From an uncultured Desulfovibrionaceae bacterium (GTDB taxonomy: Bacteria; Desulfobacterota; Desulfovibrionia; Desulfovibrionales; Desulfovibrionaceae), in assembly GCA_949297645.1 (NCBI GenBank), contig CASFUJ010000005.1, positions 1 to 33,874 of the forward strand: 33,874 nt of DNA. The letters run 5' to 3'. The notes under the pieces were generated by a model. That model was not told the origin of the DNA and ran no database searches. It saw only the letters and a program-made list of their open reading frames with translations. Below, one piece after another: positions 7,738 to 31,503 of this stretch. The number at the start of each line of letters is the position of its first letter. Position 1 is the stretch's first letter. The position numbers were made by a program, and so were the translations under genes.

Positions 7738-7766
7738 TTGACAAGACATGTTCGTTTATGGATTAT
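7738..7766 (+). promoter_or_regulatory. Sigma70-type promoter of the TAXI-TRAP operon
   Basis: A perfect TTGACA (7738-7743) lies 17 bases before GATTAT (7761-7766). The predicted start near 7773 leaves a short leader ending in AGGAGG before the ATG at 7794. Confidence 0.6.
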
Positions 7767-7793
7767 TTTCACAATAGCAATCAGGAGGCTACC

Positions 7794-8774
7794 ATGGCTC
7801 GCATTTCTTTCAAATCTCTGGCGGCATTGATACTGGTTCTCGGCCTTTCCACCCCGTCCCACGCGGCAAACGTGGAAATTCAGGCGGGCATTTTCGGCGG
7901 AACCCTTTATCAGATGAGCTATGCTCTGACGGAAATCCTCAAGGTCCACGCTCCCGAAATCACGGCCAGCGCTGTGGAGACCAACGGTACGGGCATGGGC
8001 ATCATCAAGGCTTCCCAGGCGCCTGAACGGCGCATCGTCGCCGGCACGCTGGTTCCCGTCATGGAAGCCCGCGCCGGTATTCCCCCCTACAAGAAGGCTT
8101 TCACGGGCCTGAAGCTCATCGGCAACATGAGCGAAAACATCCAGACCCTCATCACCTTCGACCCCAGCATCAAGACCATTGAAGACCTCAAGGGCAAGCG
8201 CGTCGGCCTCGGCCCCAAGCCCACGGTTCTCGGCCACAACCACGCCTCCATCGTGATGGCCGCCTGCTCCGACCCCAAGTCCATCGACTTCGAATACATG
8301 AACTGGGGCAGCATGCGTGACGCCATGCTCGACGGCTCCATCGACGCCATGATTCTCGGTGTGAGCTCCCGTCAGACTCCGCCCTGGGTCCCCGTCGCCG
8401 TTTATGGTGAACTCATCGCTTCCCGCGGCAATCCTCACTACATCGACATTCCCGTCGAAGCCGTGAAGAAGGCTTCCGAAAACGACAAGATTGCCTACGA
8501 ATGCAAGGACGTGCCCGCCGGCGCCATCGCCGAAAACGTTCCTCCGAAGGACGTTCCCAGCTGGCGCGACCTGCTCGGCCTCTACGCCTTCGACGAACTG
8601 GACGAACAGACCGCCTACACCATCGCCAAGGTTCTCTACGAACACTGCGACGAAATGGCCACCTACTCCGCCGCCGCCAAGGGCGTGTGGCCTGAACTCA
8701 TCGTTCCCACCGTTCCGGACGACATGATTCATCCCGGCGCTCTCCGCTTCTACAAGGAAAAGGGCCTGCGCTGA
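7794..8774 (+). CDS. TAXI-family TRAP transporter solute-binding protein
   Basis: This is the periplasmic substrate-capturing component of a TAXI-type TRAP transporter, 326 residues long. It has a Sec signal peptide (1-24, MARISFKSLAALILVLG to PSHA) and then the family opening IFGGTLYQMSYALTEIL. Further typical phrases are the TNGTGMGI region and a middle segment IKTIEDLKGKRVGLGPKP. The start at 7794 has AGGAGG six bases upstream; an ATG at 7758 in frame would block the signal peptide and is rejected. It is the first gene of the operon and precedes the fused permease by 168 bases. TAXI systems import organic anions such as carboxylates using an ion gradient. The ligand here is unknown but is presumably the substrate of the flavoprotein downstream. 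Confidence 0.92.
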   Translation: MARISFKSLAALILVLGLSTPSHAANVEIQAGIFGGTLYQMSYALTEILKVHAPEITASAVETNGTGMGIIKASQAPERRIVAGTLVPVMEARAGIPPYKKAFTGLKLIGNMSENIQTLITFDPSIKTIEDLKGKRVGLGPKPTVLGHNHASIVMAACSDPKSIDFEYMNWGSMRDAMLDGSIDAMILGVSSRQTPPWVPVAVYGELIASRGNPHYIDIPVEAVKKASENDKIAYECKDVPAGAIAENVPPKDVPSWRDLLGLYAFDELDEQTAYTIAKVLYEHCDEMATYSAAAKGVWPELIVPTVPDDMIHPGALRFYKEKGLR

Positions 8775-8942
8775 TTTCTCTCCCTCCGTGCGTCGGACAC
8801 CCCTCTCCGGCGCACGGTCCATCTCCGCTTCTCTTCATATCATAACACTACGGTCATGGCGTAAACGTCTTCCCTGCAATCGAAAGAGGCAGGGGTCTGG
8901 ATGTTTACTCCCTTTCCCCTTGTCCACCGAAAAGAGGAAACC

Positions 8943-10835: not shown

Positions 10836-10909
10836 ATTTTTCTTCCTTGCAAGAAAACCCGCTTCTTTTCGAACAAGGAATTATCCCTTAACTCATAGAG
10901 GATATTTCA

Positions 10910-12580: not shown

Positions 12581-12603
12581 AGCCCTTTTTGCATGAAGCC
12601 GCC

Positions 12604-12625
12604 CGTCGGGGCCATGGCCCCGACG
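12604..12625 (+). other. Perfect intercistronic palindrome
   Basis: A 22-base perfect palindrome (arm CGTCGGGGCCA) lies between the flavoprotein and the GltD-like gene. It has no U-run, so it is more likely an mRNA-stabilising or processing hairpin than a full terminator. Confidence 0.45.
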
Positions 12626-12710
12626 CGGTTTCCCGGCGACGGAGACACGCTTCCGCCGCCCTCCCCCTCCCGGCATACGGGAGAGGAGCAGTCACTCAAG
12701 GAGTATTATC

Positions 12711-14402
12711 ATGCCGCCTAGATATAGTCGTGAAATCACCCTGCCCATCGTCATGGGCGACAGCCTCAAGGAGCAGTTCCGCACCTCGCCGTGCGAGCAC
12801 TTCTGCCCCGCAGGCAATTCCATTCAGAAAATGCAGGCGCTCGTGGAAAAGGGCGAATTCGCCGAAGCCCTGCGCTATCTGCTCGCCAAGAACCCCTTCC
12901 CCGGTGTGACCGGACGCGTGTGCCCGCACTTCTGCCAGGCCAACTGCAACCGCAAGGGCTACGACTCCTGCGTGAACACCCGCGCCCTTGAACGCGCCGT
13001 GTTCGACTTCGCTCCCCGCGACAACGCCCATTTCCAGCGTCGTCCTTCCACGGGCAAGAGCGTCGGCATCATCGGCGGCGGCCCCGCCGGTCTGACTGCC
13101 GCCTATTTCCTGGCCCTTCTCGGCCACGACGTCACCGTGTATGAAGCCAATCCCGTGCTCGGCGGCGTAGCCCGCTACGGCGTGCCGGACTTCCGTCTGC
13201 CCCGCGACGTGGTTGACCGCGAAATCGGCTGGATTCTCGAAACCGGCGTACGCGCCAGAGTCAACACCATGGTCGGCCGTGACATCTCCTTCGCCGCCGT
13301 GCGCGCCGCCCACGATGCCGTCATCGTGACCACCGGCACCCCCAAGGAAAACAGCCTGCCCATCCCCGGCTCCGAAACCGCGGTGAAGGCCGTGGAATTT
13401 CTGCGTGAGGCCGCTCTCGGCCTGCGTCCTTCCGTGGGCAAGCGCGTGGTCGTCATGGGCGGCGGCGGCGTCGGCTTCGACGCAGCGTTCGTGGCCCGTC
13501 GTCTCGGCGCGGAAGAAGTGCACGTCATCTGCCTTGAAAAGGCCGGTGAAATGCGCGCCCCCGAAGAAGACCTTCTGCAGGCCGCCGAGGAAGGCATTCA
13601 GATTCACAACTCCTGCACCATGTCCGCCATCCGCACTGCCGACGGCAAGACCGCCGGTGTGGACTACTTCGAAGTGCAGGAGTGCCGCTTCGACGAAAAG
13701 GGCCGCCTCACCCTGGTGCCCGTGGAAGGAGGGGAACACACGCTTGAATGCGATACCGTCATCTTCGCCGTGGGCATGAAGACGGACCTCGACTTCATGG
13801 CCGAAGCCGGCGTGAACCTCACGCCCCGCAACTGGATTGTGGTGGACGGCAAGCAGGCCAGCTCCGTGGAAGGCATCTTCGCCGCCGGCGACGTCTCCGC
13901 CGGCCCCGCCTCCATTGCCGGCGCCGTGGGCGACGGCCGCCGCGCAGCCTTCGGCGTCCATGCCTGGCTGACCGGTGAAAACTTCCGAGTCTATGTCATC
14001 GGTGAGGACAACACCATCGTGGCCCGCGACGATTTGGCCGGAAACGTGGAACCCTATGTGGTGCCCATGGAGGAAATCTACGGTATTCTCCAGTATGAGA
14101 AGACCGAAGCCCAGAAGCAGGCCTGCGCCAACCACATGGACTTCACGGAAAACAACGCCGGCTACACCGCCGAACAGGCCATGATTGAAGCCGCCCGCTG
14201 CATGCACTGCGGCCACTGCAAGGGCTGCGGCACCTGCGTGGACGACTGCCCCGGCTACGTGCTGGAGCTCAAGCATCTTGAAAACGGCCTCGACCGCCCC
14301 GAAGTGGCCCACGGCGAGGAATGCTGGCACTGCGCCAACTGCCGTACCAGCTGCCCCACCGGCGCCATCGGCTTCCGCTTCCCGCTGCGCATGCAGGTCT
14401 GA
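12711..14402 (+). CDS. GltD-like NAD(P)H dehydrogenase with AprB-like ferredoxin tail
   Basis: This 563-residue protein appears to carry electrons from NAD(P)H to iron-sulfur centres. Residues 20-100 form the GltD-type N-terminal Fe-S domain (Cys 28, 32, 71, 75, 79, 87). An FAD Rossmann motif GGGPAG lies at 122-127, an NAD(P)H-binding GGGGVG at 250-255, and GIFAAGDV at 388-395. The C-terminal 75 residues add clusters at Cys 503/506/509/513 and Cys 538/541/544/548, preceded by an extra CxxC at 497/500. This tail ends in CWHCANCRTSCPTGAI, closely matching the two stand-alone ferredoxins at 17964 and 23161. AAGGAG stands seven bases before the ATG. It is the last gene before a terminator and is the probable electron donor to the flavoprotein upstream. 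It is not glutamate synthase, because no large subunit is present. Confidence 0.88.
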   Translation: MPPRYSREITLPIVMGDSLKEQFRTSPCEHFCPAGNSIQKMQALVEKGEFAEALRYLLAKNPFPGVTGRVCPHFCQANCNRKGYDSCVNTRALERAVFDFAPRDNAHFQRRPSTGKSVGIIGGGPAGLTAAYFLALLGHDVTVYEANPVLGGVARYGVPDFRLPRDVVDREIGWILETGVRARVNTMVGRDISFAAVRAAHDAVIVTTGTPKENSLPIPGSETAVKAVEFLREAALGLRPSVGKRVVVMGGGGVGFDAAFVARRLGAEEVHVICLEKAGEMRAPEEDLLQAAEEGIQIHNSCTMSAIRTADGKTAGVDYFEVQECRFDEKGRLTLVPVEGGEHTLECDTVIFAVGMKTDLDFMAEAGVNLTPRNWIVVDGKQASSVEGIFAAGDVSAGPASIAGAVGDGRRAAFGVHAWLTGENFRVYVIGEDNTIVARDDLAGNVEPYVVPMEEIYGILQYEKTEAQKQACANHMDFTENNAGYTAEQAMIEAARCMHCGHCKGCGTCVDDCPGYVLELKHLENGLDRPEVAHGEECWHCANCRTSCPTGAIGFRFPLRMQV

Positions 14403-14427
14403 TTCCATCCCTGAACAATGAATCCAC

Positions 14428-14464
14428 AAAGCGCCCTGTCCTGAAAACAGGCAGGGCGCTTTTC
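14428..14464 (+). terminator. Terminator of the TRAP-flavoprotein operon
   Basis: A GC-rich stem (AAGCGCCCTG pairing with CAGGGCGCTT) with an inner CCTG/CAGG extension ends in TTTT. It starts 26 bases after the GltD-like stop codon. Confidence 0.85.
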
Positions 14465-15121
14465 CTGTGCCGATAAGGTCGGTCTTCGCCCGTCCCCGCG
14501 CCTGCCCTCAGGTATTCGTAGGCATTTCGTCCAACATTCCGCAACGATTTCAGCCGATGACGTATTGGGAAAACTCCCCTGCGCCCTGCCTGCTGCCCGA
14601 TGCGGAACACCCGGGCCGGCTTTGGTCTGTTTGTATGATGTATTCATACAAAAACAAAAAATTACTGCATTGACCACCTCAGCACAAAACACGATTTTTC
14701 TATCGGCCCTGTTCGCTGCCGATACAGGCAGACGATACGGAAGCAATACGGCCCCGCCGCAGACGGCTTCCGCCCGTTCTGAAGCGTCCGCCCGGACCAT
14801 GGGCTGCCGGAGAAGGCCTCTTTCCTTTCTCCTCCGCCAGCCATCTTCCGCAGCACGAACGCCCGAGGCGCGTCTCCGTCATGCCGGCCCTCCGGACCGG
14901 TGACGCACGCCGCCCCGAAGTCTCAGGCTTCATACCGATATGCCCTTCTTCATACGAAAATGGCGTTCGACCTCGGAAAGCCTGTGCAATCCGCCGAACC
15001 TGGTTTTCCAGGGAAGAAAGAGCTCCCGCTTCGATGACATGCCGGCTGCGCAAAAAACGCTCCGGCATCCCATACAGTTCCAAGAATAGTTATACGACTC
15101 CGGTCCTATCAGGAGAAACTC
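14465..15121. other. Long intergenic region upstream of the first SLC13 permease
   Basis: About 650 bases without a convincing gene. It holds a perfect operator-like palindrome at 14630-14652 and a hairpin at 15039-15068 (ATGCCGG/CCGGCAT with inner GCG/CGC and an A-rich loop), about 55 bases before the permease start. The length suggests a regulated promoter with leader, but I see no strong -35/-10 pair. Confidence 0.4.
14630..14652. promoter_or_regulatory. Operator-like 9-5-9 palindrome
   Basis: Arms TTTGTATGA (14630-14638) and TCATACAAA (14644-14652) are perfect complements around a five-base spacer. Being AT-rich and lacking a terminator context, it looks like a dimeric regulator's site. 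The left ten bases recur at 7698-7707 before the TAXI operon. Confidence 0.5.
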
Positions 15122-16587
15122 ATGGCTGATACCAATGCCGCCACGACGAAAAAACGCCGGGCATCCTGTATTTCATCCATTCCGCCATCTGCCTTGCCGT
15201 CATGTTCGGCGTCGGCCTGATTCCCCCCATCGAACCGCTCACGCCGCTGGGCATGAGCCTGGTCGGCATTTTTCTCGGCGTACTGTACGGCTGGATTTTC
15301 ATCGACATCATCTGGCCCAGCATCGCCGGTCTGCTCGCGCTCATGCTCGTCGGCGGCATGAAGCCCGGCATGCTTCTCAACAAGAGCTTCGGCGACCCCA
15401 TCGTCGTCATGATGTTCTTCATCTTCGTATTCTGCGCCACCATCAACTATTACGGACTGTCCAAGTTCATCTCGCTGTGGTTCATCACCCGCAAGGCCGT
15501 GGCCGGCAAACCCTGGCTGTTCACCTACACCTTCCTCGGCTCCATCATGCTGCTCGGCGGCCTGACCAGCGCATCCCCCGCGGCGGTCATCGGCTGGAGC
15601 ATCCTGTACGGCGTGTGCGAAGTGTGCGGATACAAGAAGGGCGACGGCTACCCCACCATGATGGTCTTCGGCATCGTCTATGCCGCTCAGGTGGGTATGG
15701 CGCTCATTCCCTTCAAGCAGGCCGCCCTCACCGTGATGAGCGCCTATGAAACCATGTCCGGCACGCACATCGACTACGCCAAGTACATGTTCATCGCGCT
15801 TGTCGCCTGCGCTCTCTGCTCCCTGCTCTTCCTGCTCATCGGCAAATACATCTTCCGTCCCGACGTGAGCAGGCTCGCCAACCTCGACGCCAGCCAGCTC
15901 GACAAGGACCAGAGCCTCAGCCTGAACAAGGTGCAGAAGGCCGTTCTCGGCTTTCTCTTCGCCCTGGTGGCCCTGCTGCTCATTCCCGCCTTCCTGCCCA
16001 AGGACCTGTTCTTCGTCCGCTTCCTCCAGAGCATCGGCAACACCGGCATCTGCATGTTCCTCGTGGGCGTGATGTGCTTCATCAAGGTCAACGGCAAGCC
16101 GCTGCTCCGCTTCAAGGCCATGGTCGATGACGGCGTGGCCTGGGGCATCATCTTCATCCTCGCCATGGTTCAGCCTCTCTCCGGCGCCATGGCCAACCCG
16201 GCCAGCGGCATCACTCCCTTCCTCATGTCCGTGCTTGAACCGCTGTTCGGCTCCGGCTCCCCGCTGTTCTTCGCCGTGTGCATGGGCCTTCTGGCCACCA
16301 TCCTCACCCAGTTCATCAACAACGGCGCCGTGGGCGTGGCCCTCATGCCCGTCATCTTCAGCTACTGCACCAACATGGGCGTCGGACCGGAACTGCCCGT
16401 CATCATGGTGGTCATGGGCGTGCACCTTGCCTTCCTCACTCCTGCCGCCAGCTCCAGCGCCGCGCTTCTGCACGGCAACGAATGGGCCAGCACCAAGAGC
16501 ATCTGGAAGTCTTCCCCCATCGTCATCCTGCTCTCCTGGATACTGATGAGCGCCGTCACCGCCATCCTCGGCTCCATGATCTTCTAA
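15122..16587 (+). CDS. SLC13/DASS-type anion permease, frameshifted near its start
   Basis: This multi-spanning permease resembles the SLC13/DASS group that imports di- and tricarboxylates, with about 12 hydrophobic segments. The continuous frame starts at ATG 15202 (461 residues), but that ATG has no Shine-Dalgarno sequence and falls inside the first membrane helix. Upstream in the same frame is a protein-like GILYFIHSAICLAV, while a well-placed ATG at 15122 (AGGAGAAACTC before it) begins MADTNAATTKK in another frame. The two frames meet at six A (15149-15154), and one added A would join them. I take the gene as starting at 15122 with a one-base deletion or slippage site. It stands alone between its own leader and a terminator. 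The substrate is unknown. Confidence 0.8.
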
Positions 16588-16648
16588 ACTCCGTCTTTCA
16601 GAAAAACACTCTTCTGCGGGCCGCATAAGCCACAAGCCCGCCCCCGGG

Positions 16649-16680
16649 GCCCCGTCTCGCCATGCGAGGCGGGGCTCTTT
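16649..16680 (+). terminator. Terminator after the first SLC13 permease gene
   Basis: A 12-bp GC-rich stem (16649-16660 with 16664-16675, one G-U pair) with a short loop is followed by CTCTTT. It lies about 60 bases after the permease stop codon. Confidence 0.75.
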
Positions 16681-16873
16681 CATACGCCGCATCCCGCCGT
16701 CTTCTCCGACGGCTCTCAATTTTCACTCTGCGTCTTGCCTTTTTCCCCGCATACCTGCTAGAGGTTTTTACAGGTCGGACGCGTAGGAAGATTCTCCTGC
16801 CAATCTCTTCTTCGACTGTTTTTCCGAAATACGCTCTCAACATCAACTTGCAACGTTGACCGGGAATCAGACC

Positions 16874-17599
16874 ATGACGGCATCCACAGGTTCTGAAACA
16901 GAAATGCCCCTTGCTCCGTCCGGCTTCATGCCCTTCGCCATACCCATCATACAGGGAGAGACAGACATGAACTCCCCGGTGTGGCAGGAAATTCAGCGCG
17001 AAGGCACAAAAATCGTCTGCCGCGCCGGAACCTACATCGACATTTCGGGAAAGCACCAGCTTGACATGTACTGCCTGGAAAAAGGCAGCGTGCGCATCAT
17101 CTTCGATACGCTGGAGGGCAGACACCGGGCACTCATGACCTTCGAGGCAGGCGGCATCTTCAACCTGGCCTGCGCTCTGACGCAAAAAGACGCTTCCGGC
17201 CTGTACCAGTGCATACAAGACAGCGTGGTCTGGCGTGTACCCGGGACGCTCCTGCACGACCAGAGCGGCGTCACAGCATGCCCCGCTCTCGCCGCCTACG
17301 CCCTTCGACAGATGGGTACCGTGGCCCTCATACACAGCACGTTTCTTTCCGACATGCTCATGGACGACTTCGTCATCCGCTTCTGCCGCTATCTCGTCTC
17401 CCTGACCACGCGGCACGGCGGTACGGAATTTCCCCTCGGCATGACTCAGGAACGTTGTGCCGCCATGTTCGGTGTGCACAGAGCCACTCTCGGCAGAGCC
17501 GTCCAGTACCTGAAACAGAACGGTATTATTGAAAGCTTCCGCCGAGGCCAGGTGCGCATCCTCGACCCGGTAAAGCTGCGCTCCCTCGCGGACATGTAG
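16874..17599 (+). CDS. Crp/Fnr-family transcriptional regulator
   Basis: This regulator of about 241 residues has an N-terminal cyclic-nucleotide-binding-type beta-roll (from GTKIVCRAGTYIDISGKHQL through the MTFEAGGIFN turn), a dimerisation helix, and a C-terminal winged helix-turn-helix (MTQERCAAMFGVHRATLGRA, then VQYLKQNGIIESFRRGQVRI). No FNR-type N-terminal cysteine cluster is seen, so it is not a classic oxygen-sensing FNR. The start is uncertain. ATG 16874 is used; ATG 16967 with AGGGAG nine bases before it would give 210 residues and still keep the whole sensor domain. It lies alone between the SLC13 gene and the five-gene redox operon, with about 360 non-coding bases before the latter. 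That operon and the SLC13 gene are its likely targets. Confidence 0.9.
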   Translation: MTASTGSETEMPLAPSGFMPFAIPIIQGETDMNSPVWQEIQREGTKIVCRAGTYIDISGKHQLDMYCLEKGSVRIIFDTLEGRHRALMTFEAGGIFNLACALTQKDASGLYQCIQDSVVWRVPGTLLHDQSGVTACPALAAYALRQMGTVALIHSTFLSDMLMDDFVIRFCRYLVSLTTRHGGTEFPLGMTQERCAAMFGVHRATLGRAVQYLKQNGIIESFRRGQVRILDPVKLRSLADM

Positions 17600-17963
17600 C
17601 CCGCCGCCGCTGTCTCTGCCAAAACAGCAGCATATGCGGTCCTGCCCCTTTCCTGAACCTGGCCGCGCTCTCTCGCACCAGCCTCCTTTTCTCAAAAAGC
17701 AGATGGCGGCTTTCTCTCTCGCACGCTTTTCTTTTCCCAGGTATGAACGCTTCCCCGGTCTCAGAGAGCCTGCGCAGACTCCCCTTCAAACTCCGCAAAA
17801 ATAATCTTATATCTTATTGTTATTCTTATTAAAAAATTAAACTCCCAAAAATATGAAAATGTCGTATGCGCGATATTTTTATTCTCCACTTTGTGAAAAC
17901 ATGTACGCAACATTGCACGATACGCCCCGCCAGGCAGGTTGCATTTTCACAAAGGAGAAAGAC
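17600..17963. other. Regulatory region of the five-gene redox operon
   Basis: No gene is seen. Bases 17800-17860 are unusually AT-rich for this window, with TCTTAT repeated three times, and are a likely promoter zone. An 11-bp inverted repeat (CTTTGTGAAAA 17889-17899, TTTTCACAAAG 17944-17954) contains TTGTGA/TCACAA half-sites of the Crp/Fnr type. Its right arm overlaps the ribosome-binding site of the ferredoxin gene. Confidence 0.45.
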
Positions 17964-18218
17964 ATGCCCCCGGTAATCGACAGAAATAAATGCCTTGGCT
18001 GCGGCCTATGCGCCGACGTATGCCCTCTGCAGGTCTTCCGCCACGACAGGGACCATGACAAGGTTCCCGAAGTCAAACGTCCCTATGAATGTTGGCACTG
18101 CAACGCCTGCGTCCTGGACTGCCCGGCCCACGCCATTGAACTGCGTCTGCCGCTCACCCACATGCTGCTGTATGTGGACGCCGACACGCTGAAGCCCAAA
18201 GACCTGCCCGTACGCTGA
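17964..18218 (+). CDS. AprB-like ferredoxin with two [4Fe-4S] sites
   Basis: This 84-residue cytoplasmic ferredoxin has two complete cluster motifs, Cys 10/13/16/20 (CLGCGLCADVCP) and Cys 43/46/49/53 (CWHCNACVLDCP). The second, preceded by RPYE and followed by AHAIELRLPL, recalls the AprB subunit of adenylylsulfate reductase, but the long AprB C-terminal tail is absent. The start at 17964 has AAGGAG before it. An upstream in-frame extension from 17853 or 17901 is not ferredoxin-like. It is the first gene of the operon and lies 68 bases before the AprA-like flavoprotein, so the two probably form a flavoprotein/ferredoxin pair like AprBA. The source of its electrons is not encoded next to it. 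Confidence 0.9.
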   Translation: MPPVIDRNKCLGCGLCADVCPLQVFRHDRDHDKVPEVKRPYECWHCNACVLDCPAHAIELRLPLTHMLLYVDADTLKPKDLPVR

Positions 18219-18286
18219 GCAACGCTTCCGCCCCGCACGAAGACGAACAGCACACTCTCCCCCCAACTTTTCTCTGGAGGCACTCC

Positions 18287-19957
18287 ATGATTCCTCTTAA
18301 AGGACAATATGACGCCGATGTCGCCGTTATCGGCGGCGGTATCGCCGGACTCATGGCCGCCATTGCAGCGGCGGACAAAGGCGCAAAGGTCGTTCTTCTG
18401 GACAAGGCCGACACCAGGCGCAGCGGCGCCGGCGCCACAGGCAATGACCATTTTCTGTGCTGGATTCCTGAAAAGCACGGCGACATCGGCGTTGTGTACA
18501 ACGAATTCATGGACAGCCAGAACGCCACCAGCAACGATACGCCTCTGGTCATGCGCTTTCTGGAAACCAGTCCGCACATCGTGAACATGTGGAACGAATG
18601 GGGCATCAACATGAAGCCCACAGGCGACTATCATTTCGAAGGTCATGCCTACCCCGGCCGCCCGCGCATTTTCCTCAAATACGACGGCCACAATCAGAAA
18701 AAAGTGCTTACCGAACAGGCAAAAAAGCGCGGCGTGAAGATTCTGAACCACGCTCCGGTTCTGGAAATGTTCCGCAACGATGAAGGCGTCACCGGCGTAC
18801 TGGCCCTTGACGTATCCGGCGACGAGCCATCCTTCATCATGGTCAGGTCCAAGGCCGTAGTTGCCGCCACAGGCTATGTGAGCCGCCTGTTCACCACCGA
18901 CCCCACCCCCAGTCAGATGTTCAACACCAACATGTGCCCTTCCGGCACCGGTGATTCCATCGCACAGGCCTGGCGCATCGGAACATACCTTGTGAACATG
19001 GAAAAAACCTACCGGCATGCCGGTCCCCGTTTTCTCGCCCGCTGCGGCAAGGCGACCTGGATAGGCGTCTATCGCTATCCCGACGGTCGCCCCGTGGGAC
19101 CGTTCATCACGAAGCCCGACGTGGAAACAGGCGACATGACGAGCGACGTATGGTCCTCCGCCTTCACCGACCTCAAGATGAGCGGCCGCGGCCCCGCCTA
19201 CATGGACTGCTCGGGTGCCACCAGAGAAGAACTTGAACACATGCGCTGGGCCATGAAGTGCGAAGGGCTCACCGCGCTTCTGGACTACATGGACAAGGAA
19301 GGCATCGACCCCGGCAGGCACGCCGTGGAATTCGGTCAGTATGAAGCCAACCTCGTCACCAACGGCATAGAGATAGACATCAACGGAGAGAGCAACGTAC
19401 GCGGTCTTTTCGCCGCCGGGGATATGATGGGCAACATCAGCGGCGACATCGGCGCCGCGGCCGTGTACGGCTGGATAGCAGGCCATCATGCCGCGGACTA
19501 CCGGAACCGGGCCCTGCCCGAAGCCGTGCCGGACAACGCCGAAGAGCGCATGACCTTCTACAGCGGCATCTATGAACGAAAGAGCGGCGCCTCATGGCAG
19601 GAAGCCAACTTCGCCCTTCAGCAGATTATGACCGAATACGCCGACTGCGGCCCGCACCGCGTGCGTTCGGACACCATGCTCACCGCGGGTATCAAATACC
19701 TCGGCGACCTGCGCCGGAACATCGAAAGCCAGCTATACGCCACGGACGCCCACGAACTCATGCGCGCCGCCGAAGTCGTGAATCTGCTCGACCTCGGGCA
19801 GGCGCTCATGATCTCTGCCAGAGAACGCAAGGAAAGCCGCGGCCGCCACATCCGTTCCGACTACACGTTCACCAATCCTCTCCTGCGCGACAAATTTCTC
19901 CGTATCTGGAAGGAGGGAAACGAAGTGAAAACGGCGTGGCGTGACAGGCTGCACTGA
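18287..19957 (+). CDS. AprA-like FAD flavoprotein (second copy)
   Basis: This 556-residue soluble flavoprotein has its FAD motif GGGIAG at residues 16-21, LLDKADTRRSGAGATGNDHF (37-56), SGRGPAYMD in the capping/catalytic region, and the late NVRGLFAAGD nucleotide-contacting segment. The C-terminus (HELMRAAEVVNLLDLGQALM, then RERKESRGRHIRSDYTFTN) parallels the AprA ending of HELLRC followed by REESRYPGFYYRADF. That places it nearer AprA than fumarate reductase. It has no signal peptide. It sits between the small ferredoxin and an SLC13 permease. Since the operon has no APS-related genes, a role on an organic anion is inferred rather than sulfate reduction. Close similarity to the flavoprotein at 21494 indicates duplication. 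Confidence 0.87.
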   Translation: MIPLKGQYDADVAVIGGGIAGLMAAIAAADKGAKVVLLDKADTRRSGAGATGNDHFLCWIPEKHGDIGVVYNEFMDSQNATSNDTPLVMRFLETSPHIVNMWNEWGINMKPTGDYHFEGHAYPGRPRIFLKYDGHNQKKVLTEQAKKRGVKILNHAPVLEMFRNDEGVTGVLALDVSGDEPSFIMVRSKAVVAATGYVSRLFTTDPTPSQMFNTNMCPSGTGDSIAQAWRIGTYLVNMEKTYRHAGPRFLARCGKATWIGVYRYPDGRPVGPFITKPDVETGDMTSDVWSSAFTDLKMSGRGPAYMDCSGATREELEHMRWAMKCEGLTALLDYMDKEGIDPGRHAVEFGQYEANLVTNGIEIDINGESNVRGLFAAGDMMGNISGDIGAAAVYGWIAGHHAADYRNRALPEAVPDNAEERMTFYSGIYERKSGASWQEANFALQQIMTEYADCGPHRVRSDTMLTAGIKYLGDLRRNIESQLYATDAHELMRAAEVVNLLDLGQALMISARERKESRGRHIRSDYTFTNPLLRDKFLRIWKEGNEVKTAWRDRLH

Positions 19958-20065
19958 ACCCCCTCCCGGTTTCTCTGAAAAAACGGGCCAGGTCGTATCC
20001 CGGACAGACTGCGACATTCTCCGTCGTCCAACCTCCCGCCCTCCCCTCTACTGCACGAGGTTCCC

Positions 20066-21445
20066 ATGAAAAAGTCCTCCGTTTTCTGGCTGCTGACCTT
20101 CCTCATCCCCTGCGCCGTCTATATCGCGGCCCCGCAGGACGTCTCTCCGAAGCTGCCCCTGTACATGGCCATGACCAGCATGGCGGTGACCGCATGGGTT
20201 TTCAACATCTTCCCGGCCATCGGCGTGGCGGCGCTTCTCACCTTCGGTTACCTTCTGGGCGGCGTCGCCGGGCCCGATGCGGTGTTCAAGCCCTGGACCA
20301 CCGTGCTGCCCTGGCTGTCCTTCGGCGCCATCATTCTTGGACAGGCCATGGAAAAAACCGGACTCGCCCGTCGTGTCGCCCTGCGCTGCATACGTCTCTG
20401 CGGCGGCAGCTTCTTCGGGCTGGCCTGCGGCTTTCTCATAGGCGGTATCGCTCTCGCTTCCTTCATGTCGTCCATTCTGGCCCGCATGGTCATTCTCTGC
20501 ACCATTGCTGCCGGCATTGTAGACGCACTGAAAATCAGGGAAAATTCCCGCCTGTCCTCAGCCGTCATCTTCATGGCCTTCCTTGCCGGCGCAGGACCGC
20601 AGTTCCTCTTTCTCCACTCTTCGGAATCCAACATCTGGGCTTTTCAGGAATTGTTCAAAGGCACGGACGTCGTCATTGATTTCTGGACCTACGCCCTGCA
20701 CAGCACGCTCTTTTCCGTCATCTATACCGCCTCGTCCCTTTTCTTCATCTATATGGTCAAAGGCGGAGAGAAACTGACCAGTTCCGAGGTCATGGCGTTT
20801 CTCTCCGACAGTTGCGACCAGCTCGGCGCCATGACCGCAGGAGAGAAAAAACTCTCCGGTATATGTTTCATACTGGTGGCGGCCTTCATGGTTCAGCCGT
20901 GGACGGGAATCGACCCCGTGTATGTCTTCTGCGTGCTGTCCCTAATGTGTTATATGCCCCGCGTGAACATTCTCGACCCTAAAACCATAGGCGATGTGGG
21001 CATCATGTTCCTGGTCTTCGTCACCGGCTGCATGTCCATCGGCTTCGTCGGCGGAGCCGTCGGGTTCAATACCTGGGCCGTACAGCAAATCGTACCGCTG
21101 CTTTCCGGCTGGAGCGAAACCGTCTCCATTCTCATGTCCTACCTGCTCGGCCTCGTCATCAACTTTCTGCTCACGCCGCTGGCTGCACTCGGAGCCATCA
21201 CTCCGGCCATCGGTGAACTCGGCAGAGCCATGAACGTCAACCCGCTTCCCGTTTTCTACGCCTTCAACTACGGACTCGATCAGTATCTGTTCCCGTATGA
21301 AACGGTCTATCTGCTCTACATCTTCATCACCGGCAAAATCACCCTCAGGCACATCATGCCCGCCCTGTTCGTCCGCATGCTGACGACCGGACTTCTCATC
21401 GTCTGCATTGCCATTCCGTGGTGGAGCTTCATCGGTCTCATATAA
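20066..21445 (+). CDS. SLC13/DASS-type anion permease
   Basis: This 459-residue inner-membrane protein has around 12 hydrophobic segments and an SLC13-like layout, including a FPAIGVAALLTFGYLLGG segment, GAIILGQAMEKTGLARRVAL typical of the first re-entrant half, and NFLLTPLAALGAITPAIGEL in the second half. It is probably a sodium- or proton-coupled importer of an organic dianion. It lies at the centre of the operon, flanked on each side by a flavoprotein and a ferredoxin, so its substrate is probably handled by one or both. It resembles the permease at 15122 only distantly. The start follows a purine-poor region (ACGAGGTTCCC before the ATG) but is supported by an immediate N-terminal membrane helix. 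Confidence 0.85.
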   Translation: MKKSSVFWLLTFLIPCAVYIAAPQDVSPKLPLYMAMTSMAVTAWVFNIFPAIGVAALLTFGYLLGGVAGPDAVFKPWTTVLPWLSFGAIILGQAMEKTGLARRVALRCIRLCGGSFFGLACGFLIGGIALASFMSSILARMVILCTIAAGIVDALKIRENSRLSSAVIFMAFLAGAGPQFLFLHSSESNIWAFQELFKGTDVVIDFWTYALHSTLFSVIYTASSLFFIYMVKGGEKLTSSEVMAFLSDSCDQLGAMTAGEKKLSGICFILVAAFMVQPWTGIDPVYVFCVLSLMCYMPRVNILDPKTIGDVGIMFLVFVTGCMSIGFVGGAVGFNTWAVQQIVPLLSGWSETVSILMSYLLGLVINFLLTPLAALGAITPAIGELGRAMNVNPLPVFYAFNYGLDQYLFPYETVYLLYIFITGKITLRHIMPALFVRMLTTGLLIVCIAIPWWSFIGLI

Positions 21446-21493
21446 TTCCGTTCTCGGCCCGTCCTGTCATACCAGGAAACAAGGAGGAGATTC

Positions 21494-23158
21494 ATGTCAC
21501 AACATCCGTTCACCATTTTCCGATACCACACGGATTTTCTCATCATCGGCGGCGGTATCGCGGGACTCATGGCGGCCATACACGCCGCAGACTCCGGCCT
21601 GAAGTGCACCATCGTGGAAAAAGCCAACATCAGACGCAGCGGGTCCGGCGGCCTGGGGAACGACCACTTCATCTGCTACATTCCCGAAGTGCACGGCGAA
21701 TATGAGGCCTTCATCGAAGACGTTATGCGCCTTCAGAACGGAGACCGCCTGCGTCAGATGGGACCGGAATGGGCACGCAAGTTTTTCTTCAAGACGAACG
21801 ACATCGTAAAGATGTGGGAGGAGTGGGGTATTCCCATGAAGCATGAGGGGGCATACTACTTTGCCGGCCACTCCCTTCCCGGCAGAACCCGCGCCTTCCT
21901 CAAGTATAACGGACGGGACCAGAAAATCGTACTTACCAATCAGGCAAAAAAGCGCGGCGTGGAAATCCATAACCGGCACATGGGCTATGAACTTCTGCTC
22001 AATGCAGACGGCAGCGTAGCGGGAGCCGTGGCCGTGGACACCCGGGAAAAAGCGCTGCATGTCTATTATGCAAAAACAGTGCTGCTCAGCACGGGCCTGG
22101 TAAACAACCTCTGGCCTTTCTGTCGTCAGGGAGCCGTAGGCGCAACGCCGGACATGCTCAACCTTACAGCCGACGGTCGCATGATGGCATTCCGCGCCGG
22201 TGCGGAACTGTGCAATCTGGAGCTGCCTTCCCTCCACTCGGGTATCAAATATTTCTCCCGCAACGGTCAGGCCACATGGGAAGGCGTGCTGCGGGACACT
22301 ACGGGCAAGCCTCTCGGCCCCTTCCTCGACGCCCCCAACCCCCTTTACGGCGACATTACCATGGAAGTCCGCAAAGAATTCATAGAAGAGGCCAACCGGG
22401 AAGGGCGCGGCCCCATCTTCATGGACATGACGGGCCTCACGGAACAACAACTGGAAACCATGCATCACTGGCTGCGGCAGGAAGGCAACTACACACTGCT
22501 GCGCCACTTCGGGCAGGAAGGGGTGGACCTTATGGATACGGCCGTGGAATTTTCCACCTATCCCCTGCTCATGCCGCCTTCCGGAGGCATCGCCTTCAAC
22601 GACAGGTCGGAGACCTGCGTTCCCGGTCTTTATGCGGGAGGCGACGAAGGCTACGGCGGCATTGCCGGAGCCGCCGTCACGGGCTGGTGGGCGGCGGATG
22701 CGGCCGCCGACTATGTCCTGGTCAAGAAGAAGGCGAATGAGCCTGCCGTACACGAAACGGTGGTGAATACACTCGCGACACGCCTCGGCGCCATGCTGGA
22801 GCGGGAACACGGAGCGCACTGGACCGAAGCGCTTCAGGCGCTTCAGAACATTACCTGGGACTACTGCGGCGAGATACGCAGCGCCTCCGGTATGGAACAC
22901 GGCCTGAACCACCTGCGCCGCGTACACGCCCACGCCCTCACCTCGCTCAGGGCGGAAAATCCCCACGAGCTTGCCCTGTGCCTCGGCGTGCTCAACCTGT
23001 ACGAGCTTGCCGACATCATGTTTCAGATGGCTCTCGAGCGCCGGGAAAGCCGGGGATACCACAAACGGGCCGATTTCCGACTGCCGGATCTCCGCCTGAA
23101 CGGTAAGAAACACTACATCCGCAAGGATGGCGACCACAATATCATGAGCTGGAGATAA
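21494..23158 (+). CDS. AprA-like FAD flavoprotein (third copy)
   Basis: This 554-residue flavoprotein has FAD motif GGGIAG (19-24), VEKANIRRSGSGGLGNDHF (41-59), REGRGPIFMDMTGL in the region that reads REGRGPIYMD in AprA, and a late VPGLYAGGDEGYGGIAGAAV segment. Its C-terminus (NPHELALCLGVLNLYELADI, then ERRESRGYHKRADF) matches the AprA pattern best of the three copies. AAGGAGGAGATTC precedes the ATG. It is followed only two bases later by the ferredoxin gene, so the two are probably translationally coupled. No signal peptide or membrane anchor is seen. It is clearly related to the copy at 18287. The reaction is unknown; APS reduction itself is unlikely without accompanying sat or qmo genes in the window. 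Confidence 0.88.
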   Translation: MSQHPFTIFRYHTDFLIIGGGIAGLMAAIHAADSGLKCTIVEKANIRRSGSGGLGNDHFICYIPEVHGEYEAFIEDVMRLQNGDRLRQMGPEWARKFFFKTNDIVKMWEEWGIPMKHEGAYYFAGHSLPGRTRAFLKYNGRDQKIVLTNQAKKRGVEIHNRHMGYELLLNADGSVAGAVAVDTREKALHVYYAKTVLLSTGLVNNLWPFCRQGAVGATPDMLNLTADGRMMAFRAGAELCNLELPSLHSGIKYFSRNGQATWEGVLRDTTGKPLGPFLDAPNPLYGDITMEVRKEFIEEANREGRGPIFMDMTGLTEQQLETMHHWLRQEGNYTLLRHFGQEGVDLMDTAVEFSTYPLLMPPSGGIAFNDRSETCVPGLYAGGDEGYGGIAGAAVTGWWAADAAADYVLVKKKANEPAVHETVVNTLATRLGAMLEREHGAHWTEALQALQNITWDYCGEIRSASGMEHGLNHLRRVHAHALTSLRAENPHELALCLGVLNLYELADIMFQMALERRESRGYHKRADFRLPDLRLNGKKHYIRKDGDHNIMSWR

Positions 23159-26818: not shown

Positions 26819-28651
26819 TTACTTGACGACGATGGGCGTCTTCCAGGGCTCGAGGTCCTCCACGAGCTTCTTCCAATTGCCGGGCAGTTCCACCTTATGC
26901 GTGGTGGTGTAGCTGCCGCCCGCTCCCCAGCGGTCGATGACGAGGCTGGCGTCCGCGCCGTTGCCGCCGCCCACGATGATGCGGATGTCCTGAGGAGTGG
27001 GCACCACGGGGACGCGGCCGTCAAGAGGCTGGTCATCCCATTCCGGGGGAACGCCCTTCACCTCGGCAAAATGTCCCAGAGGCACATGTCCCCACATGTC
27101 GCGCCTGATGCCGGTGCGTTCCCACACTTCCTGCTGAATCTTCTCCGGCGTATAGCCCCAGCTCGCCCAGCGGGCCGCCATTCCGGCGCTGAGGTCGAGA
27201 ATGATGTCCTTGCCCCACTGTTCAATGGACGTACCGAGAGTGGTGTTCACCAGGTTAATCACCATGGGGTCGATAAACTTCTGATAGGGTTTGTGACTTC
27301 TGTTCTTCTGCGAATCGTTGAACTGCCGGAAGGACTGTGCGGCATAAAGCGTCACCGTGCTGTCCTCCTTCGAAAAGCCCAGGCGCTCACGCCAGGTGGA
27401 CCAGCCTTCGGGAGTCTGCTCTTCGTTTTCCGCAAGCACCATGCCGAACTTGGCGGGATTGCCGGCGTCCTTCATGTCGTTGACGCCGGGCCAGGACTTG
27501 CCGATGTTGATGCAGAACAGACGGGAGGCGCGGCCGATGGTGCTGTTGGCTCTCCAGCCCGGACCAAGAGCGCTGAAACTGTAATTGAGATTGAGGTCCC
27601 TGACGATGGGACCGCTGATGATGACCAGCGGAGCCGTAAGACCGGCGGTGCTCATGACGCCGTGCATGTCGAAATGCGGATCGCAGAAGGCACGGGCCAT
27701 GGCCACGAGAACGGGCATATACGCCGGACGGCAACCGGCCATGACGCCGTTGATGGCTATCATCTCCACGGTGGCGAGCCCCTTGCGGGGTTCCATGACG
27801 CCGAGAATTTCATCCCCGGGCAGTCCCGAGGCCGCAATCATCTCATCCACCTTCTCCCGGGTGGGCGGCACCACGGGGTAGCCGTCGCTCATGCGGTGGG
27901 ACAGGAAGAACTTGTCCATATTGTCCACGGCATCCTGATAGGTCTTCCCCTTGAACACCAACTCGCCTACGGGCTTGGCTTTCCGCTCTTCAATAATACG
28001 GTTCTTCGCCGCGTCCGTCATCCTGGTCAGACCTGCCAGAACGGCGGGTTCCACTTCCTGTCCAAGTTTAACAAGTTCCTCGTGGGACAACCCGTTTGTG
28101 GACGCCACGGAAAGGGCCACCACCGGCATATCGGGCAGTCCCATGGCCTGCACGGAGGCCTGCGCATCTTCGGCGAACACCGAAGCCACCATCATCACAC
28201 TGGGCTTCTTATAAAGAATGTCATACTGGCCTGCGTCACGCGCAGACTTGGAGGTGCACGAACCTCAGTCGCCCAGCATTTCCACAACGCCGTCCGCCCA
28301 TTCGGCGACGGCCTTCATATCCTCCTCTTTTTTGGCATAGTCGAAGAAGGACACCTTAAACTTTTTGAATTCCGTTTTGGGATACCTGGCGGACAAAACC
28401 TCCAGCATGGGACCTATCATATGGTCTCCGCCGGCCTTTCCGTTGTTGACCAAAGCTATTTTCTTGCCGTCCAGAGTATCCAGACGGGGGCATAACTTCT
28501 GCGCCTGCGGTCCCCAGAACTGAGCCCGGGGGTCAAGAACCTTCAGGACCACTTCGTCCTGCGCCGCAGCTGCCGCGATGGCCTGCGTCTCACCGGCAAA
28601 CGCCGTTACCGCAATGCCCAGAAAAAGAAGGGAGAGCCAGAATTTTCTCAT
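26819..28651 (-). CDS. Exported UGSC-motif selenoprotein (in-frame UGA = Sec)
   Basis: Two open stretches, 28651-28268 and 28264-26819, share one frame and are separated only by a TGA at 28267-28265. Reading it as selenocysteine gives 610 residues with Sec129-Gly-Ser-Cys132, exactly the UGSC motif that names a known (seleno)protein family of unclear function. Residues 1-19 are a signal peptide (MRKFWLSLLFLGIAVTAFA), so the protein is likely periplasmic. The N-terminal domain (30-150) leads into GDUGSC, and a long second domain follows with HRMSDGYPVVPPTREKV and VEMIAINGVMAGCRPAYMPV. A SECIS-like hairpin follows the UGA. The start has AAGGAAGG upstream. If the UGA were a real stop, the second part would lack a signal peptide and a plausible start. 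The reaction is unknown; redox chemistry at Sec/Cys is inferred. Confidence 0.88.
28229..28267 (-). promoter_or_regulatory. Putative bacterial SECIS element with its UGA codon
   Basis: On the minus strand a 7-bp stem, GTCTGCG and CGCAGGC with one U-G pair, closes the loop CGTGA, beginning 17 bases after the UGA. The distance and a G in the loop fit SelB-dependent SECIS elements. A second small stem, GAGGT/ACCTC, overlaps the UGA itself. Confidence 0.65.
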
Positions 28652-28794: not shown

Positions 28795-29115
28795 CTAGCA
28801 GTTGCAGTCCGTCTTCAACGGGTCAACGGAAATGTACGGACGTATGCCGTTCAGAATCTCTTCAGTAAAGCCGGGCACTTCCAGAAGCTCGTCCACGCTC
28901 TGCAAATCGCCCAGCGTTTCACGGTACCCCACAACGGCCATGGCCAGTTCCCTGTTCATACCGGGCAGAGAGGCCAGCATTTCCACGCTGGCGGTATTGG
29001 GACTGATGAGCTTGTCCTCGTCACCGCCGTCCGCCATGGCCGACACGGCGAAAGCGCAGAAAGACAGGGACAGGACGCAGGAACATACGACTTTTCTGAG
29101 AAATACTGTTTTCAT
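28795..29115 (-). CDS. Small exported helix-hairpin-helix (ComEA-like) protein
   Basis: This 106-residue protein has a signal peptide (about 1-28, MKTVFLRKVVCSCVLSLSFC to VSAMA) and then a double helix-hairpin-helix domain of the ComEA type: LISPNTASVEMLASLPGMNR, then ELAMAVVGYRETLGDLQSVD and ELLEVPGFTEEILNGIRPYI. Such domains bind DNA non-specifically; exported forms are known in DNA uptake, but no other competence gene is in the window. It ends in an unusual DCNC with two cysteines. The start at 29115 has GAGGTGG upstream; the ATG at 29130 lacks one. It is transcribed toward the selenoprotein gene 144 bases away and may share its transcript, and diverges from the two-component operon. Confidence 0.85.
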   Translation of the reverse strand: MKTVFLRKVVCSCVLSLSFCAFAVSAMADGGDEDKLISPNTASVEMLASLPGMNRELAMAVVGYRETLGDLQSVDELLEVPGFTEEILNGIRPYISVDPLKTDCNC

Positions 29116-29185
29116 AACCACCTCTTTCATTGCAGCACTCTGAAAAAAAACACTTTCTTCTTATCTGTATGTATAAAGAAACGTC

Positions 29186-29223: not shown

Positions 29224-29292
29224 TCTGTCCCGGTCTTTTTACGAACAGGGAAATTTCATGTACATTTTCAGTAAAGGTACGGTATATTCTAA

Positions 29293-29301
29293 GGGGGGGG
29301 G
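29293..29301 (+). repeat. G9 homopolymer in the response-regulator start region
   Basis: Nine consecutive G lie four bases before the ATG at 29306 and replace a normal Shine-Dalgarno sequence. If translation begins instead at the in-frame ATG 29258, the tract lies within coding sequence. Such runs can change length by slipped-strand replication. Confidence 0.75.
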
Positions 29302-29305
29302 AAAC

Positions 29306-30046
29306 ATGAAGATGAACTGCCGTTCACCCCATATTCTGCTTATCGACGACGACGAAAAGCTGTGCGCACTGATGCAGGACTACCTTGCCCCTCAGGACAT
29401 GGAAGTCAGCATCGCTCTGAGAGGCGCGGACGGACTGCGCATGGCCCGGGAGGAGCCCTGCGACCTCATACTGCTCGACCTCATGCTTCCCGACATGAAC
29501 GGGCTGGAAATTCTGCGGGAACTGCGGCGCACAAGCACCGTTCCCATCATCATCCTTTCCGCACAGGACAGCGAAGCCGACCGCGTGGCCGGACTGGAAA
29601 TGGGCAGCGACGACTACATCTCAAAACCCTTTTCCCCCAGAGAACTGCTTGCCCGCCTGCGCGCGGTCCTGCGTCGTATTTCCCAGACGGAACAGGGAGA
29701 GCAGGCTCCGTCTTCTTCCGCCGGACATCTCGCACTGTGCGGACTCGAGGTGGATCTCGACAGTATGGAAGCCTCTCTGGACGGCAGGCTCATTCCTCTC
29801 ACGTCCTATGAGTTCCGCATCCTCGCCGAAATGATGAAGCGCCCCGGCCATGTGTTCACCCGGGAATATCTCATGGACTGCGTGGCGGAACGGGACATGG
29901 GAGCCTTCGACCGCTCCATAGACATGCACATCTCCTCCATCCGGCGAAAACTGGGCGACTCGCCCCGCTTTCCGCGCTATCTGAAAACCATACGGGGCAC
30001 GGGCTACATACTTCTGAAAAAGGAAAGCCGGAGGGAAGAGGACTGA
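29306..30046 (+). CDS. OmpR-family response regulator
   Basis: This 246-residue regulator has a receiver domain (acidic pair D14/D15, phospho-acceptor D58 in LILLDLMLPDMNG, switch residue S85, K107 in SKPF) followed by an OmpR/PhoB winged-helix DNA-binding domain (LTSYEFRILAEMMKRPGHVF, then FDRSIDMHISSIRRKLGDSP and TIRGTGYIL). The ATG at 29306 fits the family N-terminus; an in-frame ATG at 29258 would add 16 residues. Its stop overlaps the kinase start by one base (TGATG), so the two are translationally coupled. It is presumably phosphorylated by that kinase. Target genes are unknown; the phased repeats upstream suggest autoregulation. Confidence 0.95.
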   Translation: MKMNCRSPHILLIDDDEKLCALMQDYLAPQDMEVSIALRGADGLRMAREEPCDLILLDLMLPDMNGLEILRELRRTSTVPIIILSAQDSEADRVAGLEMGSDDYISKPFSPRELLARLRAVLRRISQTEQGEQAPSSSAGHLALCGLEVDLDSMEASLDGRLIPLTSYEFRILAEMMKRPGHVFTREYLMDCVAERDMGAFDRSIDMHISSIRRKLGDSPRFPRYLKTIRGTGYILLKKESRREED

Positions 30047-31503
30047 TGCGCGTCAACCTCTACCAGAAGTTCTTTATCTGGGGCCTGCTCAATCTTCTGC
30101 TCATCGCCCTGGTACCCGCCGTACTGGCGGCGTGGATGCTGCTCGGCCCGGCGGAAAAGCTGTATCCTCCCTCCTGGTTCAGCGAACGCATACATGCGCG
30201 TATCCGCAGTATTGCCACGGAACTGCAATACAAGTCCGTGGCTGACTGGTACCGCATTCTCGAAGAGAACAGCTCCGACAGGCTCGAGTTCTACCTGGCG
30301 GATTTGAACTACGACATGTTCGTGAAAAAGGCCGACGTGCCCGAAGCCGTCATCCGTCTGGCCCGGAGCATCCCCCGGGCGCCCTATGAGCTGTGTCCCG
30401 AACCGCAGATGGCAGCCAACAACTCCATACGCATCTTTTCCATCAAGGACCTTCACGCGGGCATGACGCCCGACGCCAGCGTCATCTTTCTCTACGACAG
30501 GCAGTCGCGCCGGTTCTGGTTCGGCCGCCCGCTCTTCGTCATGGACGAAGAGGAAAACCCCAACCGCATGCTGCTTGCGGTCTCCTCGCCCTCCATCACC
30601 GGCAGCGGCTTCTTCAACATCATGCCGGGACTGGCCGCGCTTCTCGCCGTCATTGCAGGCTCTTTCTTCTGGTGGCTGCCCTTTCTTCTGCATATCACAC
30701 GTCCCATTCATCAGCTCGTGGCATGCTCGGAACATATCAGCCGGGGAGACTACGACGAAGAAAAAATGCCCGCTCCCGCATCCGGGCGGACGGATGAAAT
30801 CGGCGTGCTCATCACTTCTTTCCGCTCCATGGCCGGACAAATCAGCCACAAGATACGCACCCAGCAGAACCATCTCAACCACATCGCCCACGAACTCAGC
30901 TCTCCGCTCACACGCATCCGGCTGGGGCTGGCCGTACTGGAAGACCTGTCCCCTCCCGGCATGACGGACAGAATACGGGACCTTGAAACGGATATCGGCT
31001 GCGTGGAAAGCCATGTGCAGAACCTCATGGCCTTTCTGAAGGCGGAAACCGCCTCCGTCGCCTCACCCAAGGCGCTGACCGCTCTGGAGCCGCTTCTCCG
31101 CCATCTCGTGGAAAAGGACGGCAGAGGAAAAGAGGTACGCCTGCATGTGGAAAAAGACCTTCAGGCCAGCATCGACGTGGAAAACGTGTGCAGAGCCGTA
31201 AGCAACGCCCTGCGCAACGCCGTGCAGTATGCCGGAAAGGACGGTCCTGTGGACATCCGGGCCTTCCGCCGTGACAGAACCCTCGTTCTGGAAATTCTGG
31301 ACAAAGGCCCCGGCGTCAGAAACGAGGAGCTGAGCCTTATCACCAGCGCCTTCTATCGAGGCAGCAACTCCGCCGAAACCGGAGGAACCGGACTGGGGCT
31401 GACCATCGTCAGAAACAGCGTGGAAAACATGCACGGCACTCTCCTGTGCCGGAACCGGAGTCCCCGCGGTTTTGCCGTCATCATCAGCATACCGGTACCA
31501 TAA
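30046..31503 (+). CDS. Two-component sensor histidine kinase
   Basis: This 485-residue membrane kinase has a first helix at about 13-33, a periplasmic sensor region to about 190, a second helix at about 193-215, and a HAMP linker (ITRPIHQLVACSEHISRGDY). The H-box is HIAHELSSPLTRI with His 282, in place of the commoner HELRTPL. The ATP-binding domain has an N-box (NALRNAVQYA), a G1 box DKGPGV and a G2 box GGTGLGL. Overall order resembles CpxA/EnvZ-type kinases that sense envelope conditions. It overlaps the response regulator gene by one base. The periplasmic domain matches nothing I recognise, so the signal is unknown. Confidence 0.94.
   Translation: MRVNLYQKFFIWGLLNLLLIALVPAVLAAWMLLGPAEKLYPPSWFSERIHARIRSIATELQYKSVADWYRILEENSSDRLEFYLADLNYDMFVKKADVPEAVIRLARSIPRAPYELCPEPQMAANNSIRIFSIKDLHAGMTPDASVIFLYDRQSRRFWFGRPLFVMDEEENPNRMLLAVSSPSITGSGFFNIMPGLAALLAVIAGSFFWWLPFLLHITRPIHQLVACSEHISRGDYDEEKMPAPASGRTDEIGVLITSFRSMAGQISHKIRTQQNHLNHIAHELSSPLTRIRLGLAVLEDLSPPGMTDRIRDLETDIGCVESHVQNLMAFLKAETASVASPKALTALEPLLRHLVEKDGRGKEVRLHVEKDLQASIDVENVCRAVSNALRNAVQYAGKDGPVDIRAFRRDRTLVLEILDKGPGVRNEELSLITSAFYRGSNSAETGGTGLGLTIVRNSVENMHGTLLCRNRSPRGFAVIISIPVP

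Follow-up and report, generated by a model that had tools for sequence, protein, structure and literature searches.

A UGSC-family selenoprotein gene from a Desulfovibrionaceae bacterium and the relationship of its selenocysteine domain to GrdB

Proteins of the UGSC family (PF24696, NF041046) are among the commonest selenoproteins of aquatic metagenomes (PMC2398784), and a 2026 review places them among the families with largely uncharacterised functions (PMC13188914). Both publications call the UGSC protein thioredoxin-like. The Global Ocean Sampling study reports, in its Figure S1A, a fusion of UGSC to a domain named Unknown_1 (PMC2398784). PrdB of D-proline reductase is a known homologue of another selenoprotein, GrdB (PMC13188914). 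Here, we describe a UGSC-fusion selenoprotein gene located at positions 26819..28651 on the minus strand of a 33,874-nucleotide stretch of DNA from an uncultured Desulfovibrionaceae bacterium (assembly GCA_949297645.1, contig CASFUJ010000005.1), which is called the window throughout. The encoded protein resembles the described UGSC family in its UGSC motif and in the cysteine that replaces selenocysteine (Sec) in relatives; it differs in being apparently exported, in being fused to a second domain, and in belonging to a divergent four-member subtype. It shares with the UGSC/Unknown_1 fusion the joining of the UGSC domain to one unnamed conserved domain. Profile comparisons relate the UGSC domain to GrdB.

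The gene, its in-frame UGA and the decoding signals

The reading frame starts with an ATG at 28651, terminates with a stop codon ending at 26819, and contains 610 codons, one of which is an in-frame UGA. Open reading frame calling with translation table 11 produced a 128-residue frame (28265-28651) and a 459-residue frame (26819-28198, GTG start) in the same phase, as had been anticipated in a preliminary description of this DNA; standard annotation splits the gene in two and misses the selenoprotein. Translation of TGA as Sec yields 610 residues with U129 in the sequence LGDUGSCTSK, the codon occupying 28267-28265 on the minus strand (28265..28267). The calculated mass of the precursor, 66.9 kDa, agrees with the value of about 67 kDa expected in the preliminary description, which had also recognised a single frame interrupted only by TGA in the context GDUGSC. 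Residues 1-20 (28592..28651, minus strand), MRKFWLSLLFLGIAVTAFAG, are hydrophobic, contain an AFA-G site and resemble a cleavable signal peptide when read by eye, in line with the earlier proposal of an N-terminal signal; the hydropathy test was run on relatives, and most of those of the Sec type are also hydrophobic there.

The UGSC domain (residues 38-209; 28025..28540, minus strand) matches the PF24696 profile with 83.6 bits against a cut-off of 25, as do all 59 aligned relatives, which assigns the gene to the known family named beforehand. The score against the NCBIfam equivalog NF041046, 58.9 bits, is under the curated cut-off of 125, which makes the protein a family relative and not the NCBI equivalog; an automatic naming pipeline could therefore overlook it even with the two parts of the frame united. 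The relatives come from 69 loci found by scanning 84,980 species genomes with two short patterns, which constitute a sample and not a count, and from additional whole-genome searches within the family, where seven of 149 genomes (that of the window and six relatives) contained a UGSC match. The alignment with cysteine-containing homologues proposed in the preliminary description places UGA or TGY at exactly the codon of U129: TGA is found in copies from Desulfovibrionaceae, Syntrophaceae, Nitrospiraceae, Chloroflexota, Syntrophomonadaceae and a few others, and TGC or TGT in copies from Actinomycetota, Alphaproteobacteria, haloarchaea and others. All 59 aligned proteins share D128, U/C129, G130 and C132. 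In comparison with the three nearest relatives, divergence follows the order of codon positions 3 > 1 > 2 on both sides of the UGA, and amino acid identity is 0.43-0.46 upstream and 0.51-0.53 downstream of it. The 482 codons from the UGA onward thus show conservation of the coding type, because of which a pseudogene was rejected. Homologues do not end at the UGA, the outcome that the preliminary description had named as damaging to it; conservation is as strong after the codon as before.

A hairpin resembling a selenocysteine insertion sequence (SECIS), identified by folding and covariation, starts 17 nt after the UGA (28229..28247, minus strand), where it had been noticed before, and consists of a 7-bp stem and the loop CGUGA. 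Its folding energy is unremarkable (z = -1.2 for 48 nt, and z = -2.2 for the 25-nt hairpin alone). The hairpin stands above chance because of covariation and not because of energy: among the four members of its subtype (the window copy, L099, L042 and L043), 96% of the pair cells are standard and four of the seven pairs change on both sides, whereas sliding the pairs by one to three columns in the same four members left 11-54% paired. The larger subtype has a stem at nearly the same position, with its 3' side shifted by two bases. Six pairs of this stem are kept in 94-100% of 36 Sec copies; among cysteine copies, five of the six are kept in 35-40% and the sixth in 81%. The amino acids encoded by the stem region are nearly constant in the larger subtype, so the pairing there is partly a protein constraint; one locus (L103) has a change from GC to AU at one pair. 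Folding energy does not separate Sec from cysteine copies (mean z of -0.3 and -0.4), and it was therefore left out of the evidence. The Rfam scan of the window detected no riboswitch and no SECIS family, its sole match being one tRNA, and the promoter and terminator scans gave results at chance level.

The metagenome-assembled genome to which the window belongs consists of 372 contigs and is 88.6% complete. It encodes tRNA-Sec (contig C68, 78.1 bits, cut-off 47), selB (C11, 346.9 bits, cut-off 242) and selD (C108, 269.2 bits, cut-off 125). The selD gene is itself of the Sec type, with an in-frame TGA in KGAG-U-AAK, at the position of Cys17 in E. coli SelD. The profile match of this gene (1484-2310 of locus L113) ends at position 283 of 311 and is followed by unrelated-looking sequence, which suggests misassembly or truncation. 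The search for selA, selB, selC and selD suggested in the preliminary description was thus partly successful: selB, selD and tRNA-Sec were found, but selA, which is present in 34 of the 41 genomes of the relatives search, was not. The refutation that the preliminary description had tied to a lack of Sec genes is thus almost, though not entirely, averted. Judging from the covariation and the machinery, the hairpin probably serves UGA decoding together with SelB and tRNA-Sec. The profile match, the alternation of Sec and cysteine at one codon, the covarying hairpin and the Sec genes of the genome support the earlier identification of a putatively exported UGSC selenoprotein, and it is practically certain that the locus is a real UGSC selenoprotein gene.

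Relationship of the UGSC domain to GrdB

Profile comparison indicates that the UGSC domain very likely shares ancestry with the C-terminal part of GrdB, which is the part that bears Sec. The profile of the domain from 59 proteins was compared with an alignment of 17 GrdB sequences from true grd loci of Desulfovibrionaceae, in which the UGA lies in T-U-G-T-C-T-R. The match reached 97.1% probability (E 1.3e-10) and placed Sec on Sec and VPHP-LG of UGSC (motif V-P-H-P-(L/I)-G) on IPHP-LG of GrdB; the controls, reversed GrdB and the second domain of the protein, reached 0.04% and 0.06%, respectively. Single-sequence hhalign gave 82% for GrdB and at most 4% for 17 other proteins. GrdE in the same kind of comparison scored 66% as an alignment and 1% as a single sequence. 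We found no paper stating a link between UGSC and GrdB in our literature search, which is not proof that none exists.

The two proteins are alike in the homologous Sec domain, the motif U-G-(S/T)-C-T, and the PHP-LG stretch of most UGSC proteins. The window protein differs from GrdB in its apparent export, in its other second domain, and in having neither a pyruvoyl partner nor GrdA, GrdC or GrdE seen beside it; grdA, grdC and grdE were not recognised in the window by open reading frame reading and by family scans of part of it, and the search outside the window covered PF07355. The PF07355 (GrdB) profile does not match the window protein at E 0.1, which is why the protein is not filed as GrdB, nor does it match anything else in the genome. 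A single small Sec domain is also characteristic of PrdB, which we liken to the UGSC domain by description, with the difference that no PrdA partner is seen here. Weak GRDB matches were observed in other families of the order (1330-1917 of locus L116, and locus L119); these genes have a small, PrdB-like appearance and possibly an in-frame TGA.

The whole protein was modelled by AlphaFold with a predicted local distance difference test score (pLDDT) of 86 and a predicted template modelling score (pTM) of 0.88. The secondary structure elements of the UGSC domain in the model are strand 64-69, helix 75-89, strand 94-99, helix 105-118, strand 121-127, helix 130-145 and strand 151-155, and Sec129 is placed between strand 121-127 and helix 130-145. 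Foldseek and VIA matches of the N-terminal domain are generic Rossmann/flavodoxin-like folds; they reach Z 10.7 at most, with ties between unrelated families, and do not define a confident fold. Searches of the PDB for sequence relatives of the fusion or of GrdB returned none at the thresholds used.

Under a rival reading, in line with the thioredoxin-like label of the selenoproteome literature, the protein would have a thioredoxin-like fold and a UxxC redox motif and act in the periplasm as a thiol-disulfide or peroxide-type oxidoreductase, with the C-terminal domain serving for docking. A rhodanese-like gene near 11 of the 31 Sec loci would fit such an enzyme. However, thioredoxin, represented by one sequence, scored 1% in hhalign under the conditions in which GrdB scored 82%, the alternating order of strands and helices in the model is not that of thioredoxin, and the top structural hits are Rossmann/flavodoxin-like, although hits of this kind are frequent. 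We therefore consider a thioredoxin-type oxidoreductase unlikely; the comparisons and the model speak for a GrdB-like alpha/beta domain.

Partner domain, subtypes and gene neighbourhood

Two domains are fused in the protein: the UGSC domain is followed by a conserved C-terminal domain of about 390 residues (residues 222-610; 26822..27988, minus strand). The C-terminal domain has no clear Pfam match across the 59 relatives and contains no invariant cysteine. In all 70 loci examined, it is either joined to the UGSC domain or encoded at most 9 kb away; in aerobes and haloarchaea, the two genes often overlap or adjoin. Modelled alone, the domain has a pLDDT of 85.5 and a pTM of 0.90, and its structural matches are weak: the top Foldseek hit is a class I fumarase (E 2e-4, TM 0.23) and VIA Z is at most 5.7. 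These weak matches include class I fumarases and cyclic-amide hydrolases, and we make no claim of a new fold. The domain is probably the Unknown_1 of the Global Ocean Sampling study (PMC2398784). A role as a partner of the GrdE/PrdA type was rejected, since the comparison with GrdE gave 0.1%. A stand-alone exported copy of the domain (422 residues; 6647-7912 of locus L037) lies beside UGSC fusions, and similar copies occur in many Sec clusters, which suggests a second subunit. The second domain, the relationship to GrdB and the divergent subtype were all missed in the preliminary description.

In the phylogenetic tree, the window copy forms one fully supported, long-stemmed group with L099, L042 and L043. 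Hydropathy exceeds the threshold at the N-terminus of 31 of 37 fused Sec copies and of none of the 43 cysteine copies (loci L042-L110). The division into Sec and cysteine forms is a single change on the tree; therefore, the link between export and Sec counts as one event and not as repeated evidence. Either location and residue changed together once, or they were sampled so. The genome of the window contains a second UGSC-type selenoprotein gene (1465-2199 of L015; 6020-6754 of contig C143) with a signal of the twin-arginine translocation (Tat)-like type, a TGA in AAUGGCS and a PF24696 score of 60 bits; a TAG directly after the domain, near the contig end, indicates a stand-alone form or a cut fusion. 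L043 has, between two UGSC-fusion selenoprotein genes and beside a rhodanese-like gene, a separate gene (2268-2900) for an exported UGSC protein of one domain, in which CGHC replaces the UGSC motif.

Upstream of the UGSC-fusion gene, on the same strand, lies a gene for a small exported helix-hairpin-helix (HhH, ComEA-like) protein (28795..29130, minus; PF12836, E 1e-14), a possible operon partner. An OmpR-type response regulator (29258..30046, plus) and a sensor histidine kinase with a HAMP domain (30046..31503, plus) are encoded divergently from the UGSC gene. Full-length homologues of the kinase were found in eight of eight UGSC-positive genomes (that of the window, with two copies, six relatives, and G153, a genome placed in the genus of the window, the contig C51 of which carries a UGSC fusion) and in none of 16 UGSC-negative genomes, which were hand-picked from the genus and the family and not chosen at random; matches in the latter did not go beyond the general half of the kinase. 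Each of the eight genomes has at least one copy on a UGSC contig, within about 6 kb of the UGSC genes. The preliminary description had regarded an HhH protein and a two-component system beside the selenoprotein as unusual; the two-component system proved to be a conserved partner, and the HhH gene recurs weakly, in three of 31 Sec loci. The HhH protein of the window ends in DCNC, with two cysteines at the very C-terminus, and HhH genes also occur near UGSC in L067 and L103. The second regulator and kinase copy of the window genome (L142; contig C264, 3021 bases), with 36% identity to that of the window, has no UGSC gene on its contig, and the assembly may lack another UGSC cluster.

Other neighbours of the 31 Sec loci are DUF6282 genes (eight loci) and a molybdenum oxidoreductase with Fe-S and cytochrome b subunits (four loci). 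Our literature search found no paper on DUF6282 or on selenocysteine in Mailhella. Elsewhere in the window (7758-23158), solute-uptake genes (TAXI-TRAP and two DASS-type symporters) alternate with those for three fumarate/APS-reductase-like flavoproteins and a GltD-like protein in a dense arrangement, which may be an island for the respiration of carboxylates or sulfonates.

Proposed function of the UGSC fusion

Based on the gene, its domains and its neighbourhood, a mechanism can be proposed. Codon 129 would be decoded in vivo as selenocysteine by SelB and tRNA-Sec, using the downstream hairpin. After export, the UGSC domain would present Sec129 at the start of a helix together with its conserved partner Cys132 (U-G-S-C), similarly to the Sec domain of GrdB, and the C-terminal domain, which is always encoded alongside, most likely supplies all or part of the substrate site. 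The chemistry would most likely resemble that of GrdB/PrdB: the selenolate would attack the substrate, a small periplasmic molecule with a carboxylate or carbonyl group, or accept a group from it in the course of its reductive cleavage. Cys132 may then aid release by forming a selenenylsulfide, which the cell would re-reduce. The adjacent sensor kinase and regulator would switch the system on, presumably in response to the substrate. We give a probability of roughly 0.55 to this explanation as a whole, in which a regulated, GrdB-like selenol enzyme cleaves bonds reductively in the periplasm; for GrdB-like reductive cleavage as the chemistry, the odds appear about even.

Several observations weigh against this explanation. 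Homology of one domain alone is no proof of a reaction. There is no grdE- or prdA-like pyruvoyl partner, judging from the comparison of the C-terminal domain with GrdE, and therefore the mechanism of GrdB cannot be copied whole. The subtype of the window lacks the HP of VPHP and the histidine of PEHA, both of which are kept in most relatives, which means that it may catalyse another reaction than the main group. The cysteine forms of aerobes look cytosolic and are encoded among genes of the coenzyme A type, a setting that does not demand a reductase. Finally, selA was detected in the assembly neither by profile nor with a SelA query from the same genus, which we infer to be an assembly gap.

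Alternatively, the protein could be an isomerase, lyase or hydrolase that uses Sec or cysteine as a nucleophile without net reduction, in cooperation with the C-terminal domain and, in several lineages, with a DUF6282 hydrolase. Such an enzyme would agree with the retention of the cysteine form in aerobes, with the DUF6282 genes that accompany the pair at 13 of 70 loci, in lineages ranging from haloarchaea to Deltaproteobacteria, and with the fumarases and cyclic-amide hydrolases among the fold matches. However, these matches (Z at most 5.7, TM about 0.2) may be meaningless, the C-terminal domain offers no invariant cysteine, and both the U-x-x-C pair and the fact that anaerobes use Sec favour redox chemistry, so that we regard non-reductive catalysis as improbable. 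Least credible by far is a UGA that is a true stop, or a decayed gene, with a 128-residue secreted fragment as the product: the missing selA and the two lost motifs would suit it, but conservation across the 482 codons from the UGA equals that upstream, relatives have UGA or a cysteine codon at the same site, the hairpin covaries, and tRNA-Sec, selB and a Sec-type selD occur in the same genome, with selA in most of the genus.

The reading of the UGSC fusion as a reductive, GrdB-like enzyme can be extended, if only speculatively. UGSC proteins may represent a third, undescribed branch of GrdB/PrdB selenol reductases, of which the exported fusions would be a periplasmic, respiratory-type form that uses Sec to cleave a small gut molecule. 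Each cluster would have its own sensor kinase, some would be accompanied by a molybdenum oxidoreductase, and the subtype of the window would act on another substrate. With the very probable homology to GrdB, Sec on Sec, the vague label of thioredoxin-like redox protein gives way to a class of reactions open to assay. Two features may help to find the substrate: the constant partner domain, and the matching sensor kinase, whose inducing compound can be sought.
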